From positions 1 to 37,554 of the forward strand of contig DVHC01000014.1 of the NCBI GenBank assembly GCA_018712385.1: DNA of 37,554 nucleotides, written 5' to 3'. A program made the translations under genes and the position numbers. Below, one piece after another: positions 11,144 to 26,883 of this stretch (the stretch's first letter is position 1; every line of letters starts with the position of its first letter). The notes beneath the pieces are model-generated. The model did no database searches and was not told the DNA's origin. It worked only from the letters and a program-made list of their open reading frames with translations. Source of the stretch: Candidatus Onthousia excrementipullorum. GTDB lineage: Bacteria > Bacillota_I > Bacilli_A > RF39 > UBA660.

Positions 11144-12793
11144 TCAATTATTTGGTATTTGTAAGACTTGACCAATGGATAGTAAATTAGATGTCAAATT
11201 ATTTAAAGTTTTAATAGTATCAACTGTAGTTCCAAAACGATTAGCAATACTCCATAAACTATCACCTGAGGCTACTATATAGGTATTATAGATTGGACTT
11301 CCTGGAGTACTAGAACCTGCTGTAGGAATAATTAATACTTGGCCAACTGATAATAAGTTTGATGTTAAACCATTAGCAGATTTTAAATCACTGACAGTTA
11401 CCCCAAAACGATTAGCAATACTCCATAGACTATCACCAGAGACTACTGTATAAGTAGTAGGAACTGTATCATTTTCTTCATTATCTTCTAAGTCATCTCC
11501 TGCACTAATCCCTGGAATTATTAAAGATTGTCCAACACTTAAAGTATCACTCGTTAAATCATTAGCATCTCTTATTTCTTGAACCGTAACACCAAAACGT
11601 CTTGCTATACTCCAAAGACTATCTCCTCGCTCTACAGTATAATAAAAGACTGCTCCATTATCCTCATCTTCACCATTATCTTCTTCTCCACTAACACCTG
11701 GTATAGTTAATACTTGCCCTACACTTAACACATCACTAGTTAAGTTATTAGCATCTCTTAAAGCTTGGACTGTAACCCCGAAACGATTGGCAATACTCCA
11801 TAGACTATCACCAGAGACTACTGTATAAGTAGTAGATGGTCCTGTAATATTATCATTACCTTCATTACCACTACCTACTCCTGGAATTATTAAAACTTGC
11901 CCTATGCTTAAAGTATCACTAGTAAGATTATTGGCACGTCTTAAATCATTAACGCTTATTCCATAACGACTTGCTATACTCCAAAGGCTATCTCCCCTTT
12001 GCACAGTATAAGTAACATTACCACTTGGAGGAACAATTTCATCACCTTCATTACTACCAGGTATTCTTAAAATTTGTCCAACACTTAACACATCACTAGT
12101 TAAGTTATTAGCATCTCTTAAAGCTTGGACTGTAACCCCGAAACGATTAGCAATACTCCATAGACTATCACCTTTTACTACAGTATAGAAGTTATTACCA
12201 CTGCCCTCAGGAGGAGTATAAGGAACACCAGCATACTCTGCTATCGCTCTAACTACCGCTTCCACATAGTTTAATAAATCATTTTGCAATTTAACTCTAT
12301 CATTAGCATTATCAATAAAACCATATTCTACTAACACTGACTGCATAGGAGTAGTTTCTCTAATAATGTAATAGTAGTCTTTTGATGGATCTTCAGGAAG
12401 TCTTCTTTGATAGTATTTACGCATAATTTGTCCTTCACTACCTATTTCTTCCAAGATAGACTGTGCTAAAGTAGAATTATTACGTAAAGCATAAATTACT
12501 TCAGCCCCTTCTCCACCTCCAGCATTTATATGATTAGATATAAGTATAGCATTAGGACTACCACCAAAAGCTTCATTAGCCCGTCTAAGTCTTTCTGTTC
12601 TACTAATATTCTCATCATAATCTCTAGTTAAAACAACAGGTATACCTAACTCTTTTAATCTATCAGCCATGTATAAAGAAGCTTCTAATGTAAAATCTTT
12701 CTCTTGTAAACCACCACTAACAGCACCAGGGTCCGCACCTCCATGTGAAGGAAGCAGAAAGTCCCAAATATTAAATATTATATTAAAATTCAA
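11144..12793 (-). CDS. N-acetylmuramoyl-L-alanine amidase with six LysM repeats, 5' end displaced by the mobile element
   Basis: This zinc amidase would cleave the MurNAc-L-Ala bond of peptidoglycan. The Amidase_3 domain keeps HGGADPGA (first zinc ligand), the ligand Glu region EKDFTLEASLYMADRL, ILISNHINAGG (zinc His) and VLVEYGFIDN (catalytic Glu). Six LysM repeats of about 44 residues follow (each Y-x-V-x-x-GDSLWSIA...VGQxLxIP), joined by acidic Gly/Glu/Asp linkers. The native N terminus is at 26834-26883 on the other side of the inserted element. In the present arrangement the frame opens with a TTG at 12793 overlapping the recombinase stop, giving LNFNIIFNIWDFLLPS in front of HGG, without a convincing ribosome-binding site. 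Whether it is expressed is unknown. Neither form has a signal peptide. Confidence 0.88.
   Translation of the reverse strand: MNFNIIFNIWDFLLPSHGGADPGAVSGGLQEKDFTLEASLYMADRLKELGIPVVLTRDYDENISRTERLRRANEAFGGSPNAILISNHINAGGGEGAEVIYALRNNSTLAQSILEEIGSEGQIMRKYYQRRLPEDPSKDYYYIIRETTPMQSVLVEYGFIDNANDRVKLQNDLLNYVEAVVRAIAEYAGVPYTPPEGSGNNFYTVVKGDSLWSIANRFGVTVQALRDANNLTSDVLSVGQILRIPGSNEGDEIVPPSGNVTYTVQRGDSLWSIASRYGISVNDLRRANNLTSDTLSIGQVLIIPGVGSGNEGNDNITGPSTTYTVVSGDSLWSIANRFGVTVQALRDANNLTSDVLSVGQVLTIPGVSGEEDNGEDEDNGAVFYYTVERGDSLWSIARRFGVTVQEIRDANDLTSDTLSVGQSLIIPGISAGDDLEDNEENDTVPTTYTVVSGDSLWSIANRFGVTVSDLKSANGLTSNLLSVGQVLIIPTAGSSTPGSPIYNTYIVASGDSLWSIANRFGTTVDTIKTLNNLTSNLLSIGQVLQIPNN
11721..12172. repeat. Near-identical LysM-coding repeats exactly 360 bp apart
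   Basis: Bases 11721-11812 and 12081-12172 (LysM units 3 and 1) differ at a single position, in a gene whose other LysM units are much more diverged in DNA. Unit 5 (around 11403-11460) shares another near-identical block with unit 3. This implies recent duplication or gene conversion of LysM pairs. Confidence 0.85.
12738..12746. other. Left attachment site (recombinase end)
   Basis: CCTCCATGT, identical to 26834-26842. Bases to its left are amidase codons (ADPGAV...) and to its right element DNA. On the minus strand the repeat reads ACATGGAGG and contains the CAT-GGA-GG codons of His-Gly-Gly. The exact 2-bp crossover of the serine recombinase cannot be told from the sequence. Confidence 0.85.
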
Positions 12794-14372
12794 AGTTCCA
12801 TTCTATTTCAATATCTCTTGATTTCGTTTCTTTATCATAAACTCCTATATAAACTTTATCAATAAATTCATCTACTATTACTTTATTTAACTTACTTATA
12901 TGTTTATATTTCTTTAAAATATCTTTTGCTTGTTTCTTATTTTCAGTTATTTTCTTTAAAGATTCTATTTCTTCATCTATTATAGAAACTCTTCTATTCA
13001 TTTCTTCTATTTCTTTAGTATAATCACTTGATAACATCTTAAACATATCTTCAGTTATTACAAGATTAGCCTTATCTTCATAAAGTTTTCTATAATATAT
13101 TTTCTCTTCTTCTATTTTCTTATTAAGTAAAACCTTTTCTTGTTCTAGTATCTGAATTCCTTCATCATTTGTATTTTTAGATTCTCTGATGTTATATTCA
13201 TTTTCTAGCTTTTCTTTATCATAATAGTTATCTAGTAAATCATTAATAGCATTTAATAAGACTTCTTCTAACTCATCTAACCTTATCGCTTTATTATTAC
13301 AACAATTGTGTAATCTTCTAACACCCTTACATTGTAAATATGCTCTTTTACCATCCTTTACATTATAAACATTTCTCATAAATACCTTTTTACAATTAAG
13401 ACAATACACTTTTTTACTTAAGAAATGTATTTCTCCTGATTTAACAGGACATTCATGACTAGCAAGTCTTTTCTGGACCTTTTCCCAAGTATCTTTAGAA
13501 ATAATAGCCTCATGAGCATTTTCTATTCTACACCAATCTTTTTTAGGTACAGTTTTAAACTTATGAACTTTATACCCTAAAGATGTTTTTTTACCCTGTA
13601 CTAAATTGCCAATATAAACTTCATTCCTAAGAATTTTTGCAATTGTATCATTAGTCCAACGTACATTACCATAATCACAAGTTCCAGATACATACTTACT
13701 ACCATTTTGCTTTTTATATAAAGCTGGTGTTAAGACGTTAGCATTATTTAAATATTCACTTATTTTATAATAACCATAACCATTCTCATACATTTTAAAA
13801 ATATCTTTAACAACTTTACTAGCGACAGGATCAATAACTAACTTATGTTTATCTTCACTACTTCTCATATAACCATAAGGAGCAAAGCTACCCATAAATA
13901 AGCCATCTTCTCTTTTATTCTTTAATGATTTCTTAATGTTCTGTGATAAGTCATCCAAATACCACTCATTTATTAGTCCATTAATTTGTCTTGATTTCTT
14001 ATTAGATTCAATATTAGTATCAGCATTATCTACAATACTAACAAATCTAACATTCCATTCGATGAACTTATTATGTAAGTATTTTTCTATTATCTCCATG
14101 TCTCTTGAAAACCTAGATTGTGTTTTACATAAAACTAAATTAATTCTACCACTTTCACAATCTTTAATTAATCTTTCAAATTCAGGTCTATAAGTACCTG
14201 CCCCAGAGAAATCATCATCAGAATAAATATCTACAACATCCCAGCCTTGCTTAAGAGCATATTTAATACACATACTCTTTTGATTTACAATGCTATCACT
14301 ATCATCATTCTTATTAGCTTTAAACCTATCTTCATCAGATAATCTACAATATACACCTACCTTTTCTATCAT
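12783..14372 (-). CDS. Large serine recombinase (site-specific integrase)
   Basis: The enzyme would integrate and excise this element through a phosphoserine intermediate. The N-terminal resolvase domain has VGVYCRLSDED with the catalytic Ser at residue 12, FSGAGTYRPEFERLI and LCKTQSRFSRDMEI (catalytic Arg cluster). The Recombinase domain follows (FAPYGYMRS, KISEYLNN, ILRNEVYIGNLVQGKKTS). A zinc ribbon comes next (CLNCKKVF, then CKG and CCNNKA), then a long coiled coil (about 400-470). The ATG at 14372 has GGAGG at proper distance. The ATG at 14378 is too close to it. It ends 37 bp from the left attachment site and overlaps the rebuilt amidase frame by 11 bp. Confidence 0.95.
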   Translation of the reverse strand: MIEKVGVYCRLSDEDRFKANKNDDSDSIVNQKSMCIKYALKQGWDVVDIYSDDDFSGAGTYRPEFERLIKDCESGRINLVLCKTQSRFSRDMEIIEKYLHNKFIEWNVRFVSIVDNADTNIESNKKSRQINGLINEWYLDDLSQNIKKSLKNKREDGLFMGSFAPYGYMRSSEDKHKLVIDPVASKVVKDIFKMYENGYGYYKISEYLNNANVLTPALYKKQNGSKYVSGTCDYGNVRWTNDTIAKILRNEVYIGNLVQGKKTSLGYKVHKFKTVPKKDWCRIENAHEAIISKDTWEKVQKRLASHECPVKSGEIHFLSKKVYCLNCKKVFMRNVYNVKDGKRAYLQCKGVRRLHNCCNNKAIRLDELEEVLLNAINDLLDNYYDKEKLENEYNIRESKNTNDEGIQILEQEKVLLNKKIEEEKIYYRKLYEDKANLVITEDMFKMLSSDYTKEIEEMNRRVSIIDEEIESLKKITENKKQAKDILKKYKHISKLNKVIVDEFIDKVYIGVYDKETKSRDIEIEWNFEF

Positions 14373-14441
14373 AGCCATTCCTCCAATTCCTTTAAAGAAT
14401 GACTACAAACACTTTTAAATACAAACACATTATAACTCATT

Positions 14442-14585: not shown

Positions 14586-14646
14586 TTATCTCCCCCCTTT
14601 TATTATTAGTTATAAAATATTCCTCCTCATTAAATCATCTCTCTTT

Positions 14647-15132: not shown

Positions 15133-15257
15133 AGTTTCCCTTTCTTAATATAGGGACTTTCTTTAACCCTTATTATTTATTCTATATCTCTTATAGAAAA
15201 GGTACTAACATAAGCTTCTAATCTTACTGTACCTCTTAACTAACATCTTTAGACCCT

Positions 15258-15518
15258 TTAGTTAAGTTTTACGGTGTACATACCGTTATCATACTCTTGA
15301 TATACTAGATATTTTCCTTGTTCTAGTTTTTCAAGATTTTTTTTCAAACCCTTATTGGTAATTCTAACAGTCTGTTGTATCTCACCTACATTTATATCTG
15401 TAAAGTATCTGTTATAACCTTTAGAATAAATGTAGGCATAAATGTACTTAGCTTCTTTTGGAATAGATTTATCTTTCCAAATCGCTTGTACTACTCTAAG
15501 CTGACTCTTAATATTCAT
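15258..15518 (-). CDS. Small winged-helix protein of the element
   Basis: The 86-residue protein has the same kind of fold as the next gene downstream: VVQAIWKDKSIPKEAKYIYA, YIYSKGYN, VGEIQQTVRITNKGLKKNLE and a wing ending YLVYQEYDNGMYTVKLN. An excellent AAAGGAGGAAAC site precedes the ATG, and a consensus promoter lies 45 bp further up, so this is probably the first gene of the recombinase-side operon. It probably binds DNA. Its target is unknown. A 9-bp inverted repeat (15235-15243 with 15258-15266) overlaps its stop codon. Confidence 0.65.
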   Translation of the reverse strand: MNIKSQLRVVQAIWKDKSIPKEAKYIYAYIYSKGYNRYFTDINVGEIQQTVRITNKGLKKNLEKLEQGKYLVYQEYDNGMYTVKLN

Positions 15519-15562
15519 AAGTTTCCTCCTTTCTCTGATGAGTTTTACATCAGTTCGCTAAT

Positions 15563-15591
15563 ACTATAACATTAAGTATTGAGTTTGTCAA
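15563..15591 (-). promoter_or_regulatory. Promoter of the recombinase-side operon
   Basis: On the minus strand TTGACA (15586-15591) and TATAGT (15563-15568) have a 17-bp spacer. It points toward the two winged-helix genes, the small gene and the recombinase. It is divergent from the Xre promoter only 18 bp away, so the Xre protein could control both. Confidence 0.8.
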
Positions 15592-15609
15592 CAGCACAAT
15601 TACCTTTTG

Positions 15610-15638
15610 TTGATTTTTACATCATAATATGTTATAAT
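15610..15638 (+). promoter_or_regulatory. Promoter of the element's Xre regulator
   Basis: TTGATT (15610-15615) and TATAAT (15633-15638), 17-bp spacer, followed by AGAGGTG and the ATG at 15670. Confidence 0.8.
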
Positions 15639-15669
15639 TTCCTTATCAAGAAAAAAGAGGTGTAATTTA

Positions 15670-16263
15670 ATGACGAAAAAAAACACTACTGAACTAGGTA
15701 AATATATAAGTGAAGCTAGAGAAAAAGTTGGTATTTCTCAAAGAGAACTTGCTCGTAGATGTAATATGGACTGTGCTGAAGTATCACGTATTGAATCTGG
15801 GAAAAGACAGAAACCTAACATCTTATATTTAAAAGGAATTTCTGAGACATTAGGATTAAGTTTAGTAAAATTAATGAAATTAGCTGGTTATAATGATGTA
15901 GAAATAAATTGGGGAAAAGATTTTAGTGATAGACGTTCTACTGCTGACTATCAATCCCAAATAAAGTCTTATGAAAAGTTTTATTTTAATGTTTTAGATG
16001 ATATAGAACAAAGACGTAAAAACGACTTTGCTTGTAAAGGAATAATAATTGATTTAATAAGCAAAATAGAAAATAAAGGACTTTCTAATGATGAAATATT
16101 AGAAAGCCTAAATGAAATTTTAACAACAATAAAACCTAACTTAGAAAAATTTGATAAAGCAAAATATCCTAAATTTGATAGAGGTGTATTTCCTAAAATG
16201 GAAATTAATACCAATACTAAATTAAATACACTAGTAGGAAAATTTACAGATAAAGAAAAATAA
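15670..16263 (+). CDS. Xre-family regulator, likely master repressor of the element
   Basis: Residues 8-68 form a canonical Cro/C1 HTH (LGKYISEAREKVGISQRELA, RRCNMDCAEVSRIESGKRQK, ISETLGLSLVKLMKLAGY). The C-terminal 130 residues are helical, without a protease-like catalytic motif that I can see, so they probably serve in oligomerisation or ligand binding. The gene is divergent from the operon leading to the recombinase, with back-to-back consensus promoters in the 150-bp gap. That layout is typical of a phage- or ICE-type lysogeny repressor. It ends at a hairpin terminator. The repressor role is inferred from context. Confidence 0.8.
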   Translation: MTKKNTTELGKYISEAREKVGISQRELARRCNMDCAEVSRIESGKRQKPNILYLKGISETLGLSLVKLMKLAGYNDVEINWGKDFSDRRSTADYQSQIKSYEKFYFNVLDDIEQRRKNDFACKGIIIDLISKIENKGLSNDEILESLNEILTTIKPNLEKFDKAKYPKFDRGVFPKMEINTNTKLNTLVGKFTDKEK

Positions 16264-16297
16264 CCTTTTTGCTTTCAGCAATAAGGCTATTTTTATA
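16259..16297 (+). terminator. Terminator of the Xre gene
   Basis: AATAACCTT (16259-16267) and AAGGCTATT (16283-16291) form a stem with one mismatch, extended by TTGCT/AGCAA in the loop, followed by TTTAT. A closely similar hairpin, same stem and GCTTT loop, occurs outside the element at 26972-27005. Confidence 0.6.
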
Positions 16298-16347
16298 CAA
16301 CAATATTGTGTTATAACACTTTGTAATTTGTTACTGATTAGAGTCTC

Positions 16348-16424
16348 AAAAGGGAGTTCCCTTTGCCCACATTCGTTATTGGCTCCGCCAATATCGTAGT
16401 GGGTTACTAAAATGGCATTTTAGT
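16348..16424. other. Cluster of three hairpins, possible oriT or single-strand origin
   Basis: Three perfect inverted repeats follow one another: AAAGGGA/TCCCTTT (16349-16355, 16358-16364), a nested CCCAC...GTGGG (16366-16370, 16399-16403) enclosing TTGGC-TCC-GCCAA (16379-16391), and ACTAAAAT-GGC-ATTTTAGT (16406-16424). It is markedly richer in GC than its surroundings and has no coding frame. Such dense ssDNA-type structure in a mobilizable element fits a relaxase substrate or a complementary-strand initiation site, but neither is proven. It fills most of the gap between the Xre gene and the helicase. Confidence 0.6.
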
Positions 16425-16450
16425 CCATTCTAACAAATCATATTTTATAA

Positions 16451-18643
16451 TTATTTTTTTATAATACTCTTATCTGCGTTTTTAATCATGCCAGTTGACA
16501 ATGGTTTCGTTAAAGGCTCAGTATATAAAACATCCAAACTATGTAAAGATCTAGTCATAGCTACATATAATAACTTCATATCATTTTGATTATCTGAAGA
16601 ATAAAATTGTTCTGATGCATTAGTAATAATCACACCATCAAACTCTAAACCTTTTGACAACTCGCTTGTTAAAATACATATACCACCATTATATTCAGAA
16701 TCATCACTTGTTATTAAAGTTGTATTAAAGTTTTCATTATCTAAATATAATTTTGTTTTAGCACAATCTTCAACATTTCTACATATGATACCAACAGATT
16801 TATAATCTTTATCTGAATATTGATATAATAATTCAGATATTCTCGTATTTATATCTTGTGTTTCTTCCTTCATATACTCAACTTCAGTTCCTGTTCTTAT
16901 AACAGGATTTGCTTCGCTCATATTTAAATATCTTAAAATCTGATTTGCTGATCTTGTTATTTCCATTGTTGTTCTATAGCTCTTACTTAATTGTAATATT
17001 TCACAATTAGAGTTAAAAATTTGTGCCTGAACATCTTCCCAAGAATCTACACCACGACTTGGATATATTGATTGTGCTAAATCTCCAAAAATAGAAAATG
17101 TAGCATCACTAAAAATCATTTTCAAAATATAATAATGAAACATACCTAAGTCTTGAGCTTCGTCAACAATAACGTGAGCATATTTTTTAAATACTTCTTG
17201 TTGATTTCCATTATTTAAAATATCAATATACATCAAAGATGGCAAATCTTCAAAATAAAACTTTTTCGATTTAATAGAGTTTAAAGTCTGTTTCTTAAGC
17301 AATTCAATTTCATCATGGCTTAAATTTTCTATGCAACTAACATTAGATACAAATTTTTTATATAAATTTAAAGTTGTAATTTTCAAAGGTTTAAAATAGT
17401 TTTTAATAGTTTTAGAACATCCTGTTTTTAATTCTTTCTTTATTTCGTCCAATTTATTCATAATATTTCTTTTTTCTTCAGACCCATTTGGAAGAGTAGA
17501 TAACTCATCTTTATATTTTGATCTTACTAATTCATAAAGTCGCTCATTATCTTCCTTTATTTTTTGTATTAAAATTCTTTGTATATTAGTAGCTGTCACA
17601 GAAAAGCCATTAATATCTCTAAAGTATGACTTTATACTATCCTCTGAAATTATTTCCATGCCATCGATTTCAATACCAGAAGAGAGAGAATTATTAACAT
17701 ATGTAGATATATATGTATCAATTGCATTTTTATAATCAATTGATGTTTTTGCTTTTAAAACCTTTATTTCATTTTGATTATTAATCTTTTTAGAATTAAT
17801 AATACTTATTTTATCATCAAAAAAATATGTTGAAAAATCATCAAAAGTAAATTGACTAATATTTTCAGTATCTAAATCAGGTAATAATGCTGAAATATAA
17901 TTTAAAAAATACTTATTTGGGCCTATAATAATGAAATTTTCAGCTGTATATTTATCTTCATTATATATAAGATATGCAGCTCTATGTAAAGCTACTGTAG
18001 TTTTACCACTACCAGCAACTCCTTGTACAATAATATTATCATTAAGTGGACGTCTAATAATCGCATTTTGTTCAGCCTGAATTGATGCAACAATATTTTT
18101 TAATCTTGCATCTGCATTAGTTGTCAAAAAAGGTACTAATAACTCATCATCAGTAACTAAATCTGTATCCCTTACGCTAACTAACTTACCATCTTTAATA
18201 AAGATTTGACTTTTTAAATTTAATTTTCCTGTAATAATACCTTCAGGTGCTTGATATTGAACATTACCAATACTTTGATCATAATATAATGTACAAACTG
18301 GAGTACGCCAATCGGTAGTTAAAATATTATTGTTTTCATCTGTTATAGTTGTTTTCCCTATATATATTTTATTATTATTTTTCGAACCATCTCTTTGAAA
18401 ATCAATTCTACCAAAATAAGGATTTAATTCTAAATTTTTTAATTTAGATAATCTTTTAATAATCATATCCTGTAAATGTTTAACTAAATCTTCATCTCCC
18501 CATTTTACTTCAGCATACCTTCCTTTATATTTATTAGGTATCTCTTCAAATTCTTTATTTTGATAAACTTTTTCCTCTTCTATTCTTTTTTGAACTTTTA
18601 ATAAATACTCTTTTTCAATGTTAAATCTTTCATTATCTTTCAT
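16451..18643 (-). CDS. HelD-type UvrD/helicase IV-like ATPase
   Basis: HelD proteins are superfamily 1 ATPases that bind RNA polymerase and free it from stalled complexes or nucleic acid. Some related forms protect against rifamycins. The N-terminal coiled coil (about 1-40) and the family-typical YIGKTTI, TDWRTPVCTLYYDQ and GNVQYQAPEG segments are present. The Walker A GVAGSGKTT is at 208-216, then VDEAQDLGMFHY (Walker B), DLAQSIYP, LSKSYRTTMEIT, TSELSKGLEFDGVIITNA and LYVAMTRSLHSLDVLY. At 730 residues it is full length. It lies 24 bp downstream of the Nudix gene on the same strand with its own AGGGGGA site, so it is probably the last cargo gene. A protective role for it on this element is inference. 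Confidence 0.88.
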   Translation of the reverse strand: MKDNERFNIEKEYLLKVQKRIEEEKVYQNKEFEEIPNKYKGRYAEVKWGDEDLVKHLQDMIIKRLSKLKNLELNPYFGRIDFQRDGSKNNNKIYIGKTTITDENNNILTTDWRTPVCTLYYDQSIGNVQYQAPEGIITGKLNLKSQIFIKDGKLVSVRDTDLVTDDELLVPFLTTNADARLKNIVASIQAEQNAIIRRPLNDNIIVQGVAGSGKTTVALHRAAYLIYNEDKYTAENFIIIGPNKYFLNYISALLPDLDTENISQFTFDDFSTYFFDDKISIINSKKINNQNEIKVLKAKTSIDYKNAIDTYISTYVNNSLSSGIEIDGMEIISEDSIKSYFRDINGFSVTATNIQRILIQKIKEDNERLYELVRSKYKDELSTLPNGSEEKRNIMNKLDEIKKELKTGCSKTIKNYFKPLKITTLNLYKKFVSNVSCIENLSHDEIELLKKQTLNSIKSKKFYFEDLPSLMYIDILNNGNQQEVFKKYAHVIVDEAQDLGMFHYYILKMIFSDATFSIFGDLAQSIYPSRGVDSWEDVQAQIFNSNCEILQLSKSYRTTMEITRSANQILRYLNMSEANPVIRTGTEVEYMKEETQDINTRISELLYQYSDKDYKSVGIICRNVEDCAKTKLYLDNENFNTTLITSDDSEYNGGICILTSELSKGLEFDGVIITNASEQFYSSDNQNDMKLLYVAMTRSLHSLDVLYTEPLTKPLSTGMIKNADKSIIKK

Positions 18644-18667
18644 TACATATTCCCCCTAAAAATCATA

Positions 18668-19090
18668 CTACAATTCTATAAATTCATTATTATAAGCTTT
18701 CATTATCATATCTTTTGCTAAAATATCAATATCATCTAAATCTTCAATTTTAACTTTTTTAATCTCATAAAAATTTTCTTCGCAACATCTTTTCAATTCC
18801 TCTCCTCCTAACATTGGTGTTCCTGTTACTATTTTACAACTAAAAAAATGTGCAATTGAGTCATTTCCTTCATCTACTCCTAAATACCCAATAATATCAA
18901 CATCCACGGAAAACTCCTCTTTTAATTCACGTTTTACATTTTCTTCCAAAGTTTCACCTTGCTTTATCCCACCTCCAGGTATTACATAGTATTCTTTTAT
19001 ACTTCCATCCTCTTTAATTCTCCTTCTAAACATAGCATACACTTTATCACCATCTATTATAATACCACGCGCACTTACTCTTTTTTCCAT
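18668..19090 (-). CDS. Nudix hydrolase
   Basis: Nudix enzymes hydrolyse a nucleoside diphosphate linked to another group. The Nudix box is present: GGGIKQGETLEENVKRELKEE followed by FSV, matching G-x5-E-x7-REL-x-EE with Ser in place of the usual Gly near the end. The N terminus RVSARGIIIDGDKVYAMFRR is typical, and 140 residues is the usual length. The C-terminal part contains EELKRCCEENFYEIKKV, the segment before the last helix in many nucleotide-directed members. Its start overlaps the end of the GT2-NTase gene by 16 bp. Within the operon it may hydrolyse a nucleotide intermediate or a by-product. The substrate cannot be told. Confidence 0.88.
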   Translation of the reverse strand: MEKRVSARGIIIDGDKVYAMFRRRIKEDGSIKEYYVIPGGGIKQGETLEENVKRELKEEFSVDVDIIGYLGVDEGNDSIAHFFSCKIVTGTPMLGGEELKRCCEENFYEIKKVKIEDLDDIDILAKDMIMKAYNNEFIEL

Positions 19091-20745
19091 TGTTTATCCT
19101 CCTTTAATTCTTCACTGATTAATGCCAACACAGTTTCACCAAAAAACAAAATATTATGTTGGACTTCTATAGGGTTTTTAATAGCATAGATTATATCAAA
19201 ATCTGCTATTTTTGTCAAAGTGTTTATCTTTCCAATTTCTTTCAAATATTTTTTCAAATCATTAAGTACTCTTTCATATCCGAAAGAAAATATTCTCTTT
19301 GTATTTAAAAAACATTTTATTAATACAAGTAACTTTTTTAAATACTTTTTATCAATACTAACTTTATTGTTAATTATATCTATATGTAACCTTCTACATT
19401 CGTGTAATACATTAGGCAAATTTTCTGTATCATTTTGTACAATATAGCTATAATCAATTTTATTTTTTATAATTTTTCCATATAAAGTTGGATTTACTTG
19501 ATAGTTTTGTTTTTCATAAAGCATAACTTTTGTTTTACCATCTATCCACCCAGTATTAAATTCGTTTTTTGAATATACTGTTAACCCTATATGAATTTTA
19601 AATTTTTCCAATTTTTTAGTAAAAATAACAACTTCATTTACTACATATTTATTCAATATTATATATATATCTATATCTGAACAACCAACTACAATTTCAT
19701 TTTTCCCACCAGAGCCTCCTAAAATAATGCAACTAAGATTATCCTTGAATTGATTAATTGCTAATTGCACTGTAGCTTTAATAGTTATTTTATATTCTAA
19801 TGGAAAATTTATATACTTATACTTTTTTAAGATACTATCAATTTTAATAGAGATATTATTAGATTTTTCTACTATAATTTTATCAATCAAACCCTTAAGA
19901 GAAAAATTTATATTTTCTTTTACATAAGAATCTAAATGATTATATTTTATATTTAATCTTTTATAAAAATATTCTACTATTTTTATTTTGTCTTCTTGTA
20001 AAATATTAGACTTTAAAAATAAATCTACTAAATTATAAGTGTGTAATATAAAATCATTCATTCGATTAATTTCAGATTGATAATCGTTCTTTGTTACAGC
20101 ACTATTCTCTCTTTTTATATACTTATATAACTCTATATTATTTGAAGAAACTGTAGGAGAATTAAAAATTAAAATAGGCATCATTCCATAATCTTCATGT
20201 AATGTATTTTCCAAAAACGATAAATTTGTTTGACAGAAATATTCTCTATTTATAACATATGACCAAGGTGTTGCAAAAATCCTATTAGATTCACAAAAAT
20301 ATAATAATGCTTTTAACCCATCTATATTATCAAAGTATGGTAAATCAAAACGACAATCATACTCTTTGTTTTCAACACATTGTACAGAGCATTTTAATAA
20401 ATCAACAGGATATTGTTTTAAATAATTATCAACTTTAACTATTGAATTAGGCACTAACTCATCATCAGAATCTAAAAAAATAAAATAATCACCATGACAT
20501 TTAGATATACCAATATTTCTAGCGACAGAAATACCCTGATGAGAAATTTTATAGTAATTAATTATTTTAGATAAATTATTTTGCCTAATAAATTGCAAAA
20601 CAACTTCACTAGACAAATCTTCAGAGCCATCATCAATAATAACTATTTCTATATCATTAGACTGTTTCAAAACAGATTTAATACTATTTAATATGGTATT
20701 TTCTGAATTATACATAGGAATAACAATACTATATCTATATTTCAT
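19075..20745 (-). CDS. GT2 glycosyltransferase fused to a nucleotidyltransferase
   Basis: The first 220 residues or so are a family 2 glycosyltransferase: SIVIPMYN (6-13), DDGS (38-41), HQGISVARN (69-77), the metal/UDP-sugar DSDD (92-95) and HEDYG (183-187) near the acceptor site. A helical linker runs to about 315. The C-terminal part has a polymerase-beta-type nucleotidyltransferase core: GGSGG (343-347), then SDIDIYIIL (356-364) giving the two metal-binding acidic residues, with a helical tail to 556 as in kanamycin/MNT-type enzymes. The fusion suggests one protein that activates and transfers a sugar, or modifies its own product. No membrane span is visible, so it should be cytoplasmic. 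It overlaps neighbours on both sides (11 and 16 bp). Confidence 0.85.
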   Translation of the reverse strand: MKYRYSIVIPMYNSENTILNSIKSVLKQSNDIEIVIIDDGSEDLSSEVVLQFIRQNNLSKIINYYKISHQGISVARNIGISKCHGDYFIFLDSDDELVPNSIVKVDNYLKQYPVDLLKCSVQCVENKEYDCRFDLPYFDNIDGLKALLYFCESNRIFATPWSYVINREYFCQTNLSFLENTLHEDYGMMPILIFNSPTVSSNNIELYKYIKRENSAVTKNDYQSEINRMNDFILHTYNLVDLFLKSNILQEDKIKIVEYFYKRLNIKYNHLDSYVKENINFSLKGLIDKIIVEKSNNISIKIDSILKKYKYINFPLEYKITIKATVQLAINQFKDNLSCIILGGSGGKNEIVVGCSDIDIYIILNKYVVNEVVIFTKKLEKFKIHIGLTVYSKNEFNTGWIDGKTKVMLYEKQNYQVNPTLYGKIIKNKIDYSYIVQNDTENLPNVLHECRRLHIDIINNKVSIDKKYLKKLLVLIKCFLNTKRIFSFGYERVLNDLKKYLKEIGKINTLTKIADFDIIYAIKNPIEVQHNILFFGETVLALISEELKEDKQWKKE

Positions 20746-21370
20746 TTTTTAACACCTTCATTAACCTTTTTTCATTAATTACATCTTCATTATTTAATAT
20801 TTTAACACTGTGTTTTATTTCATCTAAACTATTAGGATTAGGACCATGAATTTGATTGAAAAATATCATTTTATATGCTGGATCATCATAAGGAAAATTA
20901 GCAGGAAATTTTTTTATATCAACCTTTAATCCCGACAAATCAATATCATATAATGGTTTGTCAAAAGTTATATCATCTTCATTTAAAAATTTTAAATAGT
21001 ATAAATCAGTATTACTTACATACTTTTTTCTTATATCCTTCTTTAATTGATATAATTTTTGTAATGATGTGGTTATATTATCATTATTTATATCATTTAT
21101 ATTAAAAAGAACAACAATTCCATTATTTTTAGGATAAATATGATAATAACCCATAATAGATGTGAGCAATTTTTTTCGAAGTTCTAAACAATTACCACTA
21201 CTCATCATAACATCATATTCATATATCATAGATGCTATTTTTGTCCAATTATCCATATAATATAATTTAATACTTTTAATATTTTCAATATTAATTACAT
21301 TTTTAAAATAATATCTAAGTGATACCTCATTGTTAAGAGCATCTGGTTTTATAATATTAATTACATTCAT
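20735..21370 (-). CDS. Divergent nucleoside-diphosphate-kinase-like protein
   Basis: NDK passes the gamma phosphate of one nucleotide to another diphosphate through a phospho-His. This 211-residue protein starts with VINIIKPDAL (3-12), the signature strand of NDK with its KPD. It has IRKKYV (113-118), matching the nucleotide-contacting Arg segment, and NQIHGPNPNSLDEI (172-185), matching N-x-x-H-G with the catalytic His at 175. It is longer than normal NDK (about 140) because of extra sequence before the His segment, and the SD after HG is lost. I read it as a specialised NDK homologue acting on the product of the neighbouring kinase. It overlaps the kinase gene by ATGA. Confidence 0.7.
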   Translation of the reverse strand: MNVINIIKPDALNNEVSLRYYFKNVINIENIKSIKLYYMDNWTKIASMIYEYDVMMSSGNCLELRKKLLTSIMGYYHIYPKNNGIVVLFNINDINNDNITTSLQKLYQLKKDIRKKYVSNTDLYYLKFLNEDDITFDKPLYDIDLSGLKVDIKKFPANFPYDDPAYKMIFFNQIHGPNPNSLDEIKHSVKILNNEDVINEKRLMKVLKNEI

Positions 21371-22434
21371 ACAACCTCCATATTAGATAGCATATTTTCA
21401 AAAATCAATAAAACATTACTATCATTTTTGTTAAATAAATAATAAAAATATTCTACTAAATAAATTGAATAGAAATAATCATTATACTCCATTTCCTCTA
21501 TATTAAATACACATAATAATCTCATTATAATATAATATTTAACATCACTACTAATACATATTTTATTTTTTTTTAAAATATTAATATATCTAAGAACATA
21601 CTCTTTTCTAATATTACTACTTTTATATATACAATTTATCTCGATGGAGTTCATATTATTAATTATTATAAAAGGCTCAAATAAAATATATTGTTGAAGT
21701 GCTTTTTCATGCAAAAAATAAGATTTAGAATGATATTTAGGACAAAAATAATTATCATAAAATAATGTAGATATAAACATAATAGCAAACTCACCAATTA
21801 TACTATTATATCCAGCAGTAACCAAATCAAAAAAGCATGGTTTTATAGAAATATTTAAAGTATTAGGATCTCCTTGACTAAAAAAACACATTTTCTCATT
21901 TTCCTTTTCAAAATATTCAACAACTTCATCTATAATCATATTAATGCTTTTACATCTTTTTCCATTAATAAATATAATTTTAGAAAAATCATTATCATCC
22001 TTATACCATTTTTTTAGTCTATTCTTAATCCTACCTTTAAAAAATCTGTCATTTGCACTATAATCTAAAATTTTTGTATATTTTAAATTAATATCATAAA
22101 CAGATAAAATATCATTCATTTTATTAATAACATTTATATTTATACTCGCTTCTTTATCATTTTTGACTAATAAATCATTAAGCAAACCTTTATTTTTTTC
22201 TACAGTATCTTCGTATTCATATATGATTACATACTTATTATCTTTCAAAAAGTTATAATATATCATCTTTTTTATAGGTAATTTATTTATTGCAAGTTTA
22301 TATCCATTCAATTCATCTTGATAATCTGATTTATTAAGTACTTTATAAAAGTATTTTTTATCATTATAAATAAAATTTCCATTTATTGAATTATTCTGTT
22401 TATTAACAATAAATTTTAACTTATCCTTTTTCAT
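21367..22434 (-). CDS. APH-fold small-molecule kinase-like protein
   Basis: The protein has the aminoglycoside/choline kinase fold: a beta-rich N lobe with YFYKVLNK (K31 as ATP lysine) and DELNGYKLA (E41), then the catalytic loop QGDPNTLN at 187-194 (D189, N194) and the metal-binding FFDLVTAGYN at 201-210 (D203). The catalytic loop begins with Gln rather than His, an accepted variant. The C-terminal 130 residues are helical and very rich in Ile, Tyr and Asn. Its partner genes (SDR, NDK-like, NTase, Nudix) suggest that it phosphorylates a metabolite rather than an antibiotic, but resistance cannot be excluded. It ends in TGA inside the ATGA overlap with the next gene. Confidence 0.8.
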   Translation of the reverse strand: MKKDKLKFIVNKQNNSINGNFIYNDKKYFYKVLNKSDYQDELNGYKLAINKLPIKKMIYYNFLKDNKYVIIYEYEDTVEKNKGLLNDLLVKNDKEASININVINKMNDILSVYDINLKYTKILDYSANDRFFKGRIKNRLKKWYKDDNDFSKIIFINGKRCKSINMIIDEVVEYFEKENEKMCFFSQGDPNTLNISIKPCFFDLVTAGYNSIIGEFAIMFISTLFYDNYFCPKYHSKSYFLHEKALQQYILFEPFIIINNMNSIEINCIYKSSNIRKEYVLRYINILKKNKICISSDVKYYIIMRLLCVFNIEEMEYNDYFYSIYLVEYFYYLFNKNDSNVLLIFENMLSNMEVV

Positions 22435-22447
22435 ATTACACCTTACA

Positions 22448-23176
22448 CTAATTCATTAAACTACGACCACCATCTACAACAAAGATACTGCCAGTTGTAT
22501 ATCTAGAAAAAACCTCTAATATCGTTTTAATAAATACAGCTATTTCATCAGGAAGAAAAATCTTCTTGAGTGGAACTTTAGCTAGTGCCACTTCCTTTTC
22601 CTCCTTATTATAATTCCAAGAAGCATTCATATCTGTTTCTACTGCACCAAATGAAATTGCATTAATAGTAATATTTCTAGGAGCAAACTCTAATGCCAAT
22701 TCTTTAGTCAAAATTTCCAAGGCACTTTTTGAGGAATCATATGCATATTTATTTGTTCTAGGTACATTTGAATGTATTGAAAGTACATTTAATATAAATA
22801 AGTTTGACTGTACATATTTTGTAACCGCCGATATACAATTACAAGTTCCTATATAATTATTTTTCATTATATATAAATAATCTTTATCGTTATAATGTGA
22901 AAAATCAGATATCATTTGTTTAGAAGCATTATTTACAAGAATATCTATATGTTGTCTTTCACTATATATTTCATAAACTACTTTATCTACTTCTGCATAA
23001 CTCGATATATCACATTTTTTAAAAAAAATATTTATAGAATCAAAATATTTTACATTTGAATCATCTGTATCTAATATATAAATATAATTATCAATCGATA
23101 GTAATTCAGCTACTGCCTTCCCAATACCATTTGCTCCACCAGTTATGATAATAATATTATTACGTAAGCGACTCAT
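22448..23176 (-). CDS. Short-chain dehydrogenase/reductase
   Basis: A classical SDR of 242 residues that would use NAD(P)H on a hydroxyl or keto group. It has TGGANGIG (12-19) for the cofactor, D36 at the end of the second strand (suggesting NAD rather than NADP), NNAS at 82-85, the catalytic Ser in LSIHSN and Y146-x3-K150 (YAYDSSK). INAISFGAVETDM and TGSIFVVDGG complete the family pattern. It is the first gene of the cargo operon, with GAGGTGG before its ATG, a consensus promoter 55 bp upstream and a leader hairpin in between. The kinase gene begins 13 bp after its stop. Confidence 0.93.
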   Translation of the reverse strand: MSRLRNNIIIITGGANGIGKAVAELLSIDNYIYILDTDDSNVKYFDSINIFFKKCDISSYAEVDKVVYEIYSERQHIDILVNNASKQMISDFSHYNDKDYLYIMKNNYIGTCNCISAVTKYVQSNLFILNVLSIHSNVPRTNKYAYDSSKSALEILTKELALEFAPRNITINAISFGAVETDMNASWNYNKEEKEVALAKVPLKKIFLPDEIAVFIKTILEVFSRYTTGSIFVVDGGRSLMN

Positions 23177-23196
23177 TTATATCCACCTCTTTGCCA

Positions 23197-23221
23197 AAAA
23201 GGTTTGGTGATATAACCAAAC
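23197..23221 (-). promoter_or_regulatory. Leader hairpin of the cargo operon (possible attenuator)
   Basis: On the minus strand GTTTGGT-TATATC-ACCAAAC is followed by CTTTTTGG, about 10 bp after the -10 box and 20 bp before the SDR start. A stem with a T-run right after the transcription start looks like an attenuator or protein-binding operator. The 5-T run is short, so an operator is equally possible. Confidence 0.5.
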
Positions 23222-23230
23222 TTAAAAAAT

Positions 23231-23259
23231 ATAATAATAACATACTACATTTTTGTCAA
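23231..23259 (-). promoter_or_regulatory. Promoter of the cargo operon
   Basis: On the minus strand TTGACA (23254-23259) and TATTAT (23231-23236) have a 17-bp spacer and point to the SDR-kinase-NDK-GT2/NTase-Nudix chain. No other good promoter is seen inside the operon. Confidence 0.78.
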
Positions 23260-23278
23260 CATCTTTTTTAACAATTAG

Positions 23279-23587
23279 TTACCTAATAAAATCATCTAAT
23301 TTTTTATCTAAAATAATAGATAATTTAACTAGCTTTTCTAAAGGTATCATCTTAGTACTATCATTCTCACTTTCAAATCTCTTATAATGATTATGATTAT
23401 AATCTAAAAGTGCTGAAATATTCTCAGTAGAATATGGATTAATAGATGTATTTAAGTTTTGTTTCTTAAATTCATTATATTTTTCTAAACGAAATTTCTT
23501 AATATTTCTACAAATATTAGCATACATTTCTTCTTTATTTACATTTTGTAATAAATCTTGTAACTCTTGAAAACTATGAATAGCCAT
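23279..23587 (-). CDS. Xre-like regulator preceding the cargo operon
   Basis: The 102-residue protein has an N-terminal helix pair (about 1-25) and a Cro/C1-like domain: NICRNIKKFRLEKYNEFKKQ, then an extended Asn/Ser-rich turn, ENISALLDYNHNHYKRFESE and LEKLVKLSIILDKKLDDFI. The insertion between the first two helices makes it a divergent member. GAGGGTGG precedes the ATG. It is transcribed in the same direction as the cargo and ends just upstream of the cargo promoter, making it a good candidate for cargo control through the hairpin at 23197-23221. Confidence 0.6.
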   Translation of the reverse strand: MAIHSFQELQDLLQNVNKEEMYANICRNIKKFRLEKYNEFKKQNLNTSINPYSTENISALLDYNHNHYKRFESENDSTKMIPLEKLVKLSIILDKKLDDFIR

Positions 23588-23721
23588 TTTACCACCCTCT
23601 CATTTAATTATGACATTTTAGAGTTCTTAAAATAGCCACATATTCACGCAATTAATGTATTGAAAAGTAAATAATTAATGATATAATTAAAGTGGCACAA
23701 AAAAGAATATATAACATATTC

Positions 23722-23991
23722 TTATCGTCTTGGAATACGATGATTAACAACTAGAGTTCTTTCCACAAATAATTGTTCTAAAGATACTCCAAGAGTATCA
23801 GCAATATGTCCAATATAATCTATTCTCGTATTACGTTTAGCATTTTCTATATTAGAAACATAAGTAGGAGTAGTCCCAAGTTCATCTGCAAAATCTTCTT
23901 GAGACCAATTCTTTTTAAGTCTAAAATAAACTATATTATTCGCTAATATTTTACGAGCTTGATTCTCATAATGTTTACTCTTAATAACCAT
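23722..23991 (-). CDS. Xre-family regulator
   Basis: An 89-residue Cro/C1 protein: ILANNIVYFRLKKNWSQEDF, ADELGTTPTYVSNIENAKRN and IGHIADTLGVSLEQLFVE form a complete five-helix domain, followed by a short basic tail ending HRIPRR. I use the ATG at 23991. A GTG one codon upstream is also possible. It is divergent from the gene at 24103, with a 9-bp inverted repeat spanning the shared promoter region, a likely autoregulatory operator. Confidence 0.8.
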   Translation of the reverse strand: MVIKSKHYENQARKILANNIVYFRLKKNWSQEDFADELGTTPTYVSNIENAKRNTRIDYIGHIADTLGVSLEQLFVERTLVVNHRIPRR

Positions 23992-24008
23992 CACATCTTT
24001 TCTTTATT

Positions 24009-24068
24009 AACTTACTAACATTGTAATAAGTTTATATTCTTTAAACCATACTAACTATGTAGTAAGTT
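24009..24068. promoter_or_regulatory. Inverted repeat in the divergent promoter region (candidate operator)
   Basis: AACTTACTA (24009-24017) and TAGTAAGTT (24060-24068) are perfect inverted copies 42 bp apart, lying between the Xre gene and the divergent gene at 24103. Two half-sites of this kind fit looping or paired binding by the Xre protein. Confidence 0.5.
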
Positions 24069-24102
24069 ATAATTACATATTAATAAAAAAGAAAAGAGAT
24101 AA

Positions 24103-24678
24103 ATGACGAATAGTGCCAAGAAAGTAGGAAAAGAAAGGAAAGATATGCCAAAAATTAATGAGTTAAATAACTATATATCAACTATTACAAATAACTTTAA
24201 TAATACCATCTTAAAAATTAAAGATATTGAATATCATTATTACTTAGATAAATTACTTACTACTGAATTTAATAATTTAAAAGAAAAAGATAAAGAGTTA
24301 ATTTTGGAAGAACTAATTAACTACTATCTAACAGAAATTAAAAATCTTAAATCTCAAATTTCTTTAAAAGAAATATCAAAACAGGTTAATGATATAATTG
24401 ACTTTTTCAATTTTCATAAAGACGATTTAAAAGATAACATAGACTATTGCTCTATTATTGAAGAAGCAGAAGATATCGCAAGTGATCTATATTCAAAGGT
24501 AACTAATGTTAATGATAGGAATATAGAATTGCCTATAAAAATTACATTTTTAAAATCCTACTGCATCAGTAGTAATATAAAAGATAATGATATTATAAGA
24601 GTACTTACATGGATAGTTCTAAAACTATCTGTTATATACCACTGTTTGCCCAAACATACAATTAATTGTAGTAGATAA
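24103..24678 (+). CDS. Unknown helical protein of the element, 191 aa
   Basis: I do not recognise a family. The protein is predicted mostly helical and acidic/lysine rich, with a coiled-coil-like centre (FNNLKEKDKELILEELINYY, then LKSQISLKEISKQVNDIIDF). It has no signal peptide or membrane span. The ATG at 24103 has AGAGAT upstream. An alternative in-frame ATG at residue 15 follows the basic leader MTNSAKKVGKERKD. It is divergent from an Xre regulator and converges on the relaxase gene across a strong terminator, so it is likely regulated by that Xre protein. Confidence 0.6.
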   Translation: MTNSAKKVGKERKDMPKINELNNYISTITNNFNNTILKIKDIEYHYYLDKLLTTEFNNLKEKDKELILEELINYYLTEIKNLKSQISLKEISKQVNDIIDFFNFHKDDLKDNIDYCSIIEEAEDIASDLYSKVTNVNDRNIELPIKITFLKSYCISSNIKDNDIIRVLTWIVLKLSVIYHCLPKHTINCSR

Positions 24679-24703
24679 AATTAATATACATCCTACTTTC
24701 TTT

Positions 24704-24736
24704 AACTAGCATCTATAAAAGTATGCTAGTTTTATT
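24704..24736. terminator. Bidirectional terminator between the unknown gene and the relaxase
   Basis: AACTAGCAT (24704-24712) pairs perfectly with ATGCTAGTT (24723-24731) around a 10-nt loop, followed by TTATT on the plus strand. It lies between convergent stop codons. Confidence 0.8.
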
Positions 24737-26000
24737 ATAAACTTAATTCATCATCGTTAGATATATCATAGCCGTCATTATAATTTATACCTACATAATC
24801 AAATAGTTCATCTTCTTTACTAGTATTATTAGCAATATCATAAACATCATCTTGATTAAAGTCATTATTATCATAATAGTCTTTTATTTCGCTTGTAACA
24901 GTCTCTTTTGTAACTTCATTACCAATTTGTAATAATTTTCTAAAAAATGTCTTTATCGCCTTTAAAATAGCATTAATATAATCTCTTAACTTATTATTCT
25001 CTATTATAAGGTTACTATTTCTAGTTTTAAGAGACTTTATTGCTCTTTGATACTTTTTGTTTTCTTTATCTAAAGAATTATAACTATTTACATAACTATT
25101 AATATCATTAAATACTTGCTCTATTTTAGGTTGTAACTCTTTAACCTTTTTAGTTTCTATAATAACCCTATTCATAGTATCAAAAGTATCTTTTTCAACA
25201 ACAATATGTTTCTTATCAAAAGGAATAGTTTTAGAAGTTTTCATTTGTGCCTCTAACTTATTCATAGCCTTATCTAATCTTTCATTTCTAGTATTTAAGT
25301 TCTGTTCCAATTTTCTATTAATATTCTTATAGTCTTTAATCTTAATGTGCTTTCTATCACTACCTTTAATACCACGTTCTAAATCATAACCTTTATCTAT
25401 TAATCTTTTATGATATTTATCTTGTAATTCTGATAAATGAATATTATCTTTAATATATTGTTTCTTAGATATAGTATATCTTTCTGTTTTAGTTCTATTA
25501 TCAAACTTTCTAACTAAAGGAACAACTACACAATGAATATGTGGTGTCTTTTCATCTAAATGAATTACACTATGTAAAACTTGTTCTTTTTTATAACCCA
25601 AATCTTCATAAACAAACTCCATACAAGTATTAGCCCACTCTTTTATATCATCTATTGTCATATTATCAAAAAATTCAGATGTAGCAGTAAATAATAATTC
25701 ATCTGCAACTACATTTCTTGACTTATCTAACATCTGTTTAAAAGTTTTCTTTCTATCTTCACGTTCTGTTTTCATTCTCTCATCATGTTCTTTTTTATAT
25801 TCTTTAGTTAAATTATAAAAACCCTTAACATACTTATCTGTCAAGGGTACTAATTCTATATTATTTTTACTTAAATTTTTATTTATATCAGGATTAGAAT
25901 TATAAGCTTTCTTCTCCCTTTTATTATGAGAACCTATCTGTGCTAAATCATTCAATGTAAAAATAGGTTCACTTCTAAATATTGCATAATTTAAATTTAT
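24735..26000 (-). CDS. mobV: MobV-family relaxase (plasmid mobilization/recombination protein)
   Basis: Relaxases of the MobV (Pre/Mob) group nick the transfer origin and lead the strand into the recipient using another element's secretion channel. The N terminus (NLNYAIFRSEPIFTLNDLAQ IGSHNKREK) and the metal-binding HLDEKTPHIH (147-156 from the proposed start) are typical. A long coiled coil follows (about 235-370). The start is odd. GAGGTGG (26007-26013) is spaced 6 nt from an ATA codon at 25998-26000 that gives exactly the expected family N terminus, and no ATG/GTG/TTG is suitably placed. The next in-frame starts (up to an ATG at 26060) have no ribosome-binding site and add an atypical extension. 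Either AUA initiates or an ATG was mutated. Confidence 0.88.
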   Translation of the reverse strand: MNLNYAIFRSEPIFTLNDLAQIGSHNKREKKAYNSNPDINKNLSKNNIELVPLTDKYVKGFYNLTKEYKKEHDERMKTEREDRKKTFKQMLDKSRNVVADELLFTATSEFFDNMTIDDIKEWANTCMEFVYEDLGYKKEQVLHSVIHLDEKTPHIHCVVVPLVRKFDNRTKTERYTISKKQYIKDNIHLSELQDKYHKRLIDKGYDLERGIKGSDRKHIKIKDYKNINRKLEQNLNTRNERLDKAMNKLEAQMKTSKTIPFDKKHIVVEKDTFDTMNRVIIETKKVKELQPKIEQVFNDINSYVNSYNSLDKENKKYQRAIKSLKTRNSNLIIENNKLRDYINAILKAIKTFFRKLLQIGNEVTKETVTSEIKDYYDNNDFNQDDVYDIANNTSKEDELFDYVGINYNDGYDISNDDELSL

Positions 26001-26061
26001 AAATATCCACCTCACTTTAATAATCATTAATTTCATACTTACATTTTTCACAACAAACATA

Positions 26062-26712
26062 TTAAACTAAATTTTTACCATTCGGTATATCTTTCCACTC
26101 TTTTCTAATCAAAATCAACAAAAATTTGCATAAATTAACAAATGAATTGGCATTCACAATAATATGTTTTTTAAACCTAGTATAGTCTTTAGTAATGCCA
26201 ATTGATAAGCCATTATTACCAACTAATTGTGAAGAAGAAATCAAAGCACTATCAGAAAAATGAACAAACCTACAATAAAAATTATACATTTCTTTTATTT
26301 TATTCCCATATTTTTCATCAATTTTGCTTATCAAATAAAAATCTGTCATTTTTTGCTTTCCTATTTTATAAGAACTTAATTTTCTATTTTTATGTATAAT
26401 ATTTTCGCCCAAATCATCTATATTATAACCAGCATCAACTAGCATATGCATTGCATACACAAAAATGCAATTATCTAATTGAAGTCTAATCAAAGAATTT
26501 AAAACCATTATATTATTACTTGGCAATAGTCTTTTATAAGCCTCTATTAAAGCCAAACTTCTATTCAAAATACTAGTTATTAAAATATTTTTATAATTAA
26601 ATGTACCTGTAATCTTATACTCATTATAAAGATAATATTTATATGCATTAAATATATTATCAAATTCTTTAACAATTTCTTTCTTTGTTTTATATTTATT
26701 TTCATCTTTCAC
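26062..26712 (-). CDS. Unknown helical protein preceding the relaxase
   Basis: A 216-residue all-helical protein with no membrane span. Features include ILNRSLALIEAYKRLLPSNN, SLIRLQLDNCIFVYAM and YNFYCRFVHFSDSALISSSQ. The LxR...E...LIRLQLD and FVHFS patterns resemble the uncharacterised helical DUF5677-like or HEPN-like proteins common in accessory DNA, but I cannot assign it. The GTG at 26712 is preferred because AGGTGAG lies 7 nt upstream. The GTG at 26724 is within that site. It is upstream of and cotranscribed with the relaxase gene. In the integrated state the host amidase promoter points into it. Confidence 0.6.
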   Translation of the reverse strand: MKDENKYKTKKEIVKEFDNIFNAYKYYLYNEYKITGTFNYKNILITSILNRSLALIEAYKRLLPSNNIMVLNSLIRLQLDNCIFVYAMHMLVDAGYNIDDLGENIIHKNRKLSSYKIGKQKMTDFYLISKIDEKYGNKIKEMYNFYCRFVHFSDSALISSSQLVGNNGLSIGITKDYTRFKKHIIVNANSFVNLCKFLLILIRKEWKDIPNGKNLV

Positions 26713-26748
26713 AATACTTCTCACCTAAAAGCTATTATATCACTAAAA

Positions 26749-26775
26749 AAGACACTTTTCTCACTAAAGTATCTC
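26749..26775. other. Candidate MobV transfer origin
   Basis: ACTTT (26754-26758) and AAAGT (26766-26770) form a small inverted repeat upstream of the mobilization genes. On the minus strand the sequence reads ATACTTTAGTGAGAAAAGTG, which recalls the ACTTTAT...ATAAAGT-TAGTGTG layout of the pMV158-type nick region. The match is loose and based on memory of that family. Confidence 0.3.
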
Positions 26776-26811
26776 TTTTACTTGTATTTATCAGTATTCA
26801 TAGTCATTTCC

Positions 26812-26883
26812 CTATTTTTGGGATACTCCTATTCCTCCATGTCCAGCATCAACCACCACACCAGTTACTCTTCGCTCATTCAT
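26812..26883 (-). pseudogene. Severed N terminus of the LysM amidase
   Basis: An ATG at 26883 with AGAGGTGA upstream encodes MNERRVTGVVVDAGHGG, the first beta strand and zinc-ligand loop of an Amidase_3 domain. It then runs six codons (IGVSQK) into the element and stops at TAG. The frame joins exactly to the HGGADPGA at 12730-12747 when the 14.1-kb element is removed. The 23-residue product cannot be an enzyme. Confidence 0.92.
26834..26842. other. Right attachment site
   Basis: CCTCCATGT, identical to the left site. To its right is host amidase DNA encoding VVVDAG on the minus strand, to its left element DNA. In the empty site the same 9 bp would encode part of GHGG. Confidence 0.85.

Follow-up and report, generated by a model that had tools for sequence, protein, structure and literature searches.

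The AUA codon at positions 26000-25998 of the minus strand seems to be the authentic start of a working MobV relaxase gene, placed second in an operon, preceded by a strong Shine-Dalgarno site and predicted to have a low output. Judged from sequence comparison, this reading has a probability of about 0.77. The gene lies in an integrated element in the window, i.e., the whole stretch of 37,554 nucleotides of Candidatus Onthousia excrementipullorum DNA that was analysed. The features are listed in Table 1.

Table 1. Features of the relaxase gene, its operon and the element in the window
Feature	Position	Strand	Remark
Left attachment repeat ACATGGAGG	12738..12746	-	At the 3' part of the amidase gene
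Large serine recombinase	12783..14378	-	Left end of the element; Pfam Resolvase/Recombinase/Zn_ribbon_recom/DUF4368
MobV-type relaxase	24735..26000	-	421 codons plus stop; Pfam PF01076, E 1e-27; E 6e-11 to 4lvi, a solved relative
ATA start codon of the relaxase	25998..26000	-	Identical in one fragment and in 5/5 full-length clade A copies, that of the window among them
Open frame upstream of ATA	26001..26060	-	Possible 20-aa extension from ATG 26060; precluded in L007/L008 (in-frame TAG)
Shine-Dalgarno site GAGGTGG	26007..26013	-	6-nt spacer to ATA; duplex -12.9 kcal/mol with an assumed 16S tail
First gene of the relaxase operon	26062..26724	-	220 aa; no Pfam or PADLOC match; swapped for a KAP-type frame in L007/L008
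TATAAT, possible -10 element of the first operon gene	26734..26739	-	Lines up across the five full-length clade A copies; no call in the promoter scan
Terminator-like hairpin with T6 behind it	26745..26773	-	Just inside the right end; precedes TATAAT and the first gene
Right attachment repeat ACATGGAGG	26834..26842	-	Inside the 5' part of the split amidase gene

The minus strand reads GTGAGGTGG-ATATTT-ATA-AAT-TTA-AAT-TAT at the start region and, as a longer stretch, AAAGTGAGGTGG-ATATTT-ATA-AATTTAAATTATGCA. The Shine-Dalgarno site is thus at a normal spacing: GAGGTGG, 6 nt and then ATA. Five canonical codons are found in frame upstream (ATG 26060, GTG 26051, ATG 26036, ATG 26027 and GTG 26015). 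By eye, none of them has a good Shine-Dalgarno site, and GTG 26015 overlaps the site preceding ATA. In the Pfam profile search, the Mob_Pre match (E 1e-27; 97.6 bits against a cut-off of 25.5) begins at residue 24 of the 441-aa ORF, which is 3 residues past ATA. In this way the coordinates, the spacer and the profile match all agree with the first-pass annotation, which had placed GAGGTGG 6 nt before an ATA at the MobV N terminus; by eye, its remark that no canonical start is well placed fits the five upstream codons, which do remain in frame in the window. A downstream start at TTG (codon 16) was rejected: the conserved NYAIFRSEP stretch would be lost.

The solved relative 4lvi is MobM of pMV158, the MobV prototype. 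Query residue 19 and those following align from chain residue 15 onward, with 14 chain residues before that; this means that the ATA start is close to the protein start of 4lvi. The HN.R and HLDE.TPH.H motifs of the window relaxase, which we take to have catalytic and metal-binding roles, both align with this chain. The two proteins share the relaxase family, whereas the prototype is plasmid-borne and the window relaxase is on an integrated element. The window's genome also contains another relaxase of this kind (G000:C12:2-664; L101), which is incomplete, being cut by the contig end.

ATA makes up 4.8% of the window trinucleotides. Among 12 GAGGTG sites on both strands of the window, ATA follows 4-10 nt downstream in two and ATG in four. 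An ATA behind a Shine-Dalgarno-like stretch is therefore not rare by chance in A+T-rich DNA, so that relatives must decide the start question. The pattern alone is weak evidence; comparison with relatives lifts it above chance. The RNA structure over the start, folded against shuffles, showed nothing special (z 0.74 and 0.96).

Start regions were read at 126 loci, which came from genome contigs, from searches of genus and family genomes and from one plasmid, using only matches that begin within the first 6 query residues and have 40 nt upstream. Merging of loci with an identical 45-nt upstream sequence and protein gave 99 distinct rows, not all of them independent, since L168 and L185 show clade A places a second time and L186 is next to L100. 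ATG is present within the three codons preceding NYAIF in 82 rows and GTG or TTG in one, and neither is present in the remaining 16. These 16 rows are made up of two groups, clade A and clade B, and two broken copies, L072 and L103.

Clade A contains the window copy (L001), L005, L006, L007 and L008 as full-length genes, the fragment L104 and the repeat fragments L168 and L185. The start is ATA in all of them. The four full-length relatives show 97-98% amino acid identity to the window copy, and the clade occurs in 6 of the 35 genus genomes (G000, G001, G007, G011 as a fragment, G015 and G028). Clade B contains L083, L084, L085, L099 and L116 as full-length genes and the fragment L192. Its start is ATT in L083, L085, L099 and L192, and ATA in L084 and L116. 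In L085, L099 and L192 no canonical in-frame codon lies between the upstream stop and the start. In L083, L084 and L116 an ATG abuts GGAG directly, a spacing too short for normal initiation; in L083 there is in addition a TTG farther upstream.

Outside these genomes, 1654 plasmid records had a match, all below 60% identity; the start of the one plasmid copy that was read (L167) is GTG/TTG. No relative was confirmed among viral contigs. In pattern searches, each over 386 family genomes, ATH preceding AATTATGSAATATTTAGA was found in 2 genomes, and the clade A form of the start pattern in the window's genome only.

Two upstream contexts are found in clade A. That of L005 and L006 is the same as in the window: the 220-aa gene lies upstream of the relaxase. 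In L007 and L008, its place is taken by a frame of 586 codons (L007:928-2685; L008:1202-2959); this frame has a KAP-type P-loop domain and shows partial similarity to the candidate defence family PDC-S49 (E 3e-29). The initiation region of these two sister copies reads AGGAGGTAGATATTT-ATA, with GGAGGTAG as the Shine-Dalgarno sequence instead of the GAGGTGG of the window. It contains no canonical start, and because of an in-frame TAG 9 nt before ATA no upstream start is possible.

These contexts bear on a possible translation from ATG 26060, by re-initiation past the upstream stop, which would give the relaxase with 20 additional residues. The frame is open, ATG 26060 sits 1 nt past the stop of the upstream gene, and this ATG recurs in one fragment and in all three full-length copies that carry the 220-aa gene. 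Nevertheless, such a start is improbable: ATG 26060 lacks a good Shine-Dalgarno site by eye, just 14 residues of the solved MobV chain precede its match to query residue 19 and those following, and the conserved Shine-Dalgarno site before ATA would stay unused. In L007 and L008 the TAG makes it impossible. Since these two copies cannot encode the 20-residue extension, and the Shine-Dalgarno site and ATA are common to both contexts, the extension is not a general feature. The first-pass annotation had named a conserved N-terminal extension from 26060 as evidence against AUA; such an extension is impossible in two out of the five full-length genes of clade A. The open frame upstream of ATA is probably not the main start of the relaxase, and a longer form could be made by re-initiation at ATG 26060 in the window's context.

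As its second option, the first-pass annotation had offered an ATG-to-ATA mutation that weakened mobilization in this copy. ATG does occupy this place in 82/99 rows, and loss of the start does happen: L072 has AGG at the start place, and its frame ends after 22 codons. We consider a fresh mutation that silenced or weakened the window copy very unlikely. ATA is common to the entire clade, which has full-length frames, a dN/dS of 0.15 and a spread between species, and it is found in separate public assemblies. The idea that frames are broken only where the start is lost was dropped: besides L072 and L103, five ATG rows (L019, L061, L064, L065 and L070) have broken frames. A sequencing or assembly error at 25998 might be suspected from the 75 contigs of the window's genome. 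Its probability is close to negligible, as four clade A copies matched in separately named public assemblies have the same codon.

The dN/dS value was 0.148 within clade A (10 pairs) and 0.096 within clade B, and 0.06 to 0.31 in seven ATG groups that were picked from the tree by the analyst. The ATA relaxases are thus under purifying selection, at about the constraint of their ATG relatives, and the non-canonical codon has been kept among these orthologues. Between G000 and G001, the relaxase dS was 0.032, as compared with 0.60 for infC and 0.87 for rplT. For G001-G028 and G001-G015, the relaxase values were 0.05 and 0.10 against 0.71-0.97 for infC/rplT. The contrast was weaker in three genome pairs without G001 (0.04-0.10 against 0.09-0.29). 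A relaxase dS far below that of infC and rplT indicates that the element moved between species carrying ATA. Spread by another relaxase in trans, or misbinned contigs partly mimicking spread, could contribute to this result; the G001 amidase flank is only 93% like that of the window, which counts against misbinning.

A quick tree, in which some branches are long, was calculated from 80 full-length proteins after omission of 19 rows under 300 aa. It shows two changes of start state, both forced by well-supported branches. As counted on an unrooted tree, a change could be either a gain or a loss of the canonical start; as the other 70 tree rows are canonical, the two changes are read as losses. 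The comparison of this codon in close relatives, which the first-pass annotation had proposed, gave ATA in every one that was read (five of five full-length copies and one fragment). Together with purifying selection and spread between species, this supports its suggestion that AUA is used, probably with a lower output. Judged from sequence, the AUA start appears to be a kept feature of related elements in several species and not a damaged copy.

The element is about 14.1 kb long (window 12738-26842) and splits an amidase gene. The 5' part (ATG 26883) and the 3' part (from about 12746) of this gene flank it, each with ACATGGAGG. Among the 19 genus loci listed, the amidase is continuous across the insertion point in nine (e.g., L169 and L172), this right end is present in eight, and other DNA is found in two. 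With its site-specific recombinase, attachment repeats and empty sites in relatives, it appears to be an integrative mobilizable element. No transfer-apparatus domain was found in 12 scanned ORFs, a part of the element's ORFs. The relaxase operon is at the right end, and the relaxase is its second gene. G003 (L178) has this right end, with no relaxase match in the genus genome search.

A hairpin with a T run begins 44-67 nt upstream of the relaxase start region in 69/99 rows, as compared with 1-4 rows in ten rounds of dinucleotide shuffling. It might be an end terminator or part of oriT. By eye, the stems of these hairpins vary on both sides. In the five full-length clade A copies, the hairpin is before the first operon gene and not directly before the relaxase. 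On its own, the window hairpin folds no better than shuffles (z -0.2), and the terminator scan did not pick it up. In Tn916, the end terminator acts as an insulator (PMC11658703). The two resemble each other in their place immediately within one end of an integrated element, upstream of mobility genes; the difference is that the window hairpin is terminator-like by sequence only, and weak when taken alone. By analogy, it may shield the element against transcription from the host.

Starts of this kind are not restricted to the relaxase in this genus. A sample of the window's genome gave further cases, and in AbiEii toxin and ORF6N genes ATT or ATA is preceded by strong Shine-Dalgarno sites. In the best 30 infC loci listed, the start is ATA in 25 and ATC in five, at the same place, and GGAGGTG precedes it in the 29 listed loci that have upstream sequence. 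The window's genome has GGAGGTGTTAATT-ATA, and other starts are excluded in L166 by a stop codon 6 nt upstream. For AbiEii, 42 of 58 loci were read; among those listed, 14/42 are without a canonical codon near the start, and these have ATT (11), ATA (2) or GTT (1) where others have ATG or GTG. The AbiEii toxin gene L213:11586-12437 (G000:C37) reads GGAGGTG-TTGTT-ATA-ATT-AAT with no canonical in-frame start. Among the matches listed, most close genus relatives have ATT or ATA at the homologous codon, and L226 has ATG; in wider family relatives this codon is ATG, GTG and, once each, GTT and ATA.

For ORF6N, the best 30 matches listed represent 28 distinct places in the genus (the L213 row repeats L244, and L273 is the same place as L246), with ATA in 15, ATT in four and ATG in nine. 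Among the 19 ATA/ATT places listed, eight have no upstream in-frame canonical codon, and in eight an ATG follows the Shine-Dalgarno site after 2 nt. The neighbouring ORF6N-domain genes L213:17337-18200 and 16764-17168 have GGAGGTTATGGTT-ATA and GGAGGTTATAGTT-ATA starts, respectively. A GntR-like regulator gene, named by eye (L276:10622-11003), has GAGGTGATAATT-ATA as its likely start.

In a genome sample of 484 ORFs (591 kb), codons spaced behind a strong Shine-Dalgarno site were counted in ORFs without a canonical one; ATA/ATT/ATC were not significantly enriched (6/34 against 3.9 expected; p 0.19), and the relaxase and ORF6N genes are not among the listed ORFs of this count. Without a significant excess over 484 ORFs, genes with AUA, AUU or AUC starts seem to be few.

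The infC gene is regulated by feedback from its own product, IF3, which normally discriminates against the AUA codon. The relaxase resembles infC in having a Shine-Dalgarno site and then AUA or AUC at a conserved place. The difference is the autoregulation by IF3: a relaxase is not known to have a role in initiation. The E. coli pcnB gene reportedly starts at AUU, and this inefficient codon is said to limit the gene; it is likewise a weak start codon, on a host gene that is not mobile. In S. aureus, infC, ccpN and citZ start at AUA (PMC13009471). Reporters of ccpN and citZ (AUA) and cvfC1 (AUU) gave about 10% of the AUG output, with up to 30% for ccpN in rich medium; the S. aureus AUA/AUU starts carry strong Shine-Dalgarno pairing, ccpN is conserved to B. 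subtilis, and E. coli infC feeds back on its own product IF3 (PMC13009471). The genes ccpN, cvfC1 and citZ share AUA or AUU with Shine-Dalgarno pairing, and their output is below that of AUG; they are host genes with measured output, whereas the relaxase is mobile and known from sequence. In the open-access literature, subscription papers being mostly outside the scope of the search, no paper was found that joins a relaxase with a non-canonical or non-AUG start.

We infer initiation at AUA, low output, its tuning by IF3 and selection in favour of low output. The Shine-Dalgarno site (GAGGTGG in the window; a variant in the sister copies) would place the initiator tRNA on AUA. Discrimination by IF3 against this codon would then lead to production of the relaxase at a fraction of the AUG level. 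By analogy to the AUA reporters of S. aureus, this might be about 10-30% of AUG (PMC13009471). Such a weak start would enable expression of the first operon gene while the relaxase stays scarce. The relaxase would be functional, perhaps IF3-sensitive, and the IF3 level would tune its output.

It may also be that AUA is used but is a tolerated product of drift: the relaxase would be needed in traces only, and the codon would have no regulatory role. This is the less likely case, though one of some weight. The Shine-Dalgarno strength is ordinary: duplex energies with the assumed 16S tail were -12.9 and -15.8 kcal/mol for the two clade A contexts, against -14.8 to -16.0 kcal/mol for three ATG relatives. 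As they are not stronger than in ATG relatives, no special compensation for AUA is seen. The absence of significant AUA/AUU/AUC enrichment in the genome sample fits drift as well, and so does clade B, which is without an interposed first gene and hence is not explained by the operon argument. Against drift, two independent start changes have each been kept through a clade. AUA and AUU interchange in clade B with no return to AUG in five full-length copies, and infC, AbiEii and ORF6N use such codons in parallel. The two origins and the interchange suggest a start that is selected rather than tolerated, and selection for low relaxase output is plausible.

Weak AUA/AUU starts are known on a few host genes. 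The conserved case on a conjugation relaxase, together with the second independent relaxase case and the parallels in toxin and regulator genes, suggests that weak starts keep risky mobile-DNA proteins scarce. Tentatively, and at somewhat less than even odds, AUA, AUU or AUC behind a strong Shine-Dalgarno site might be a recurrent dosage device in this lineage of gut Bacilli, used where a gene product has to be kept low: in relaxases of mobile elements, with two or more origins, in the toxin gene of AbiE pairs, in ORF6N regulators and in IF3 itself. If so, the IF3 supply would tie mobility and toxin output to the translation state, and gene callers limited to ATG/GTG/TTG would misplace all such starts. 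For the relaxases themselves, callers without ATA/ATT would misplace the start, and a link between the IF3 level and mobility becomes testable.
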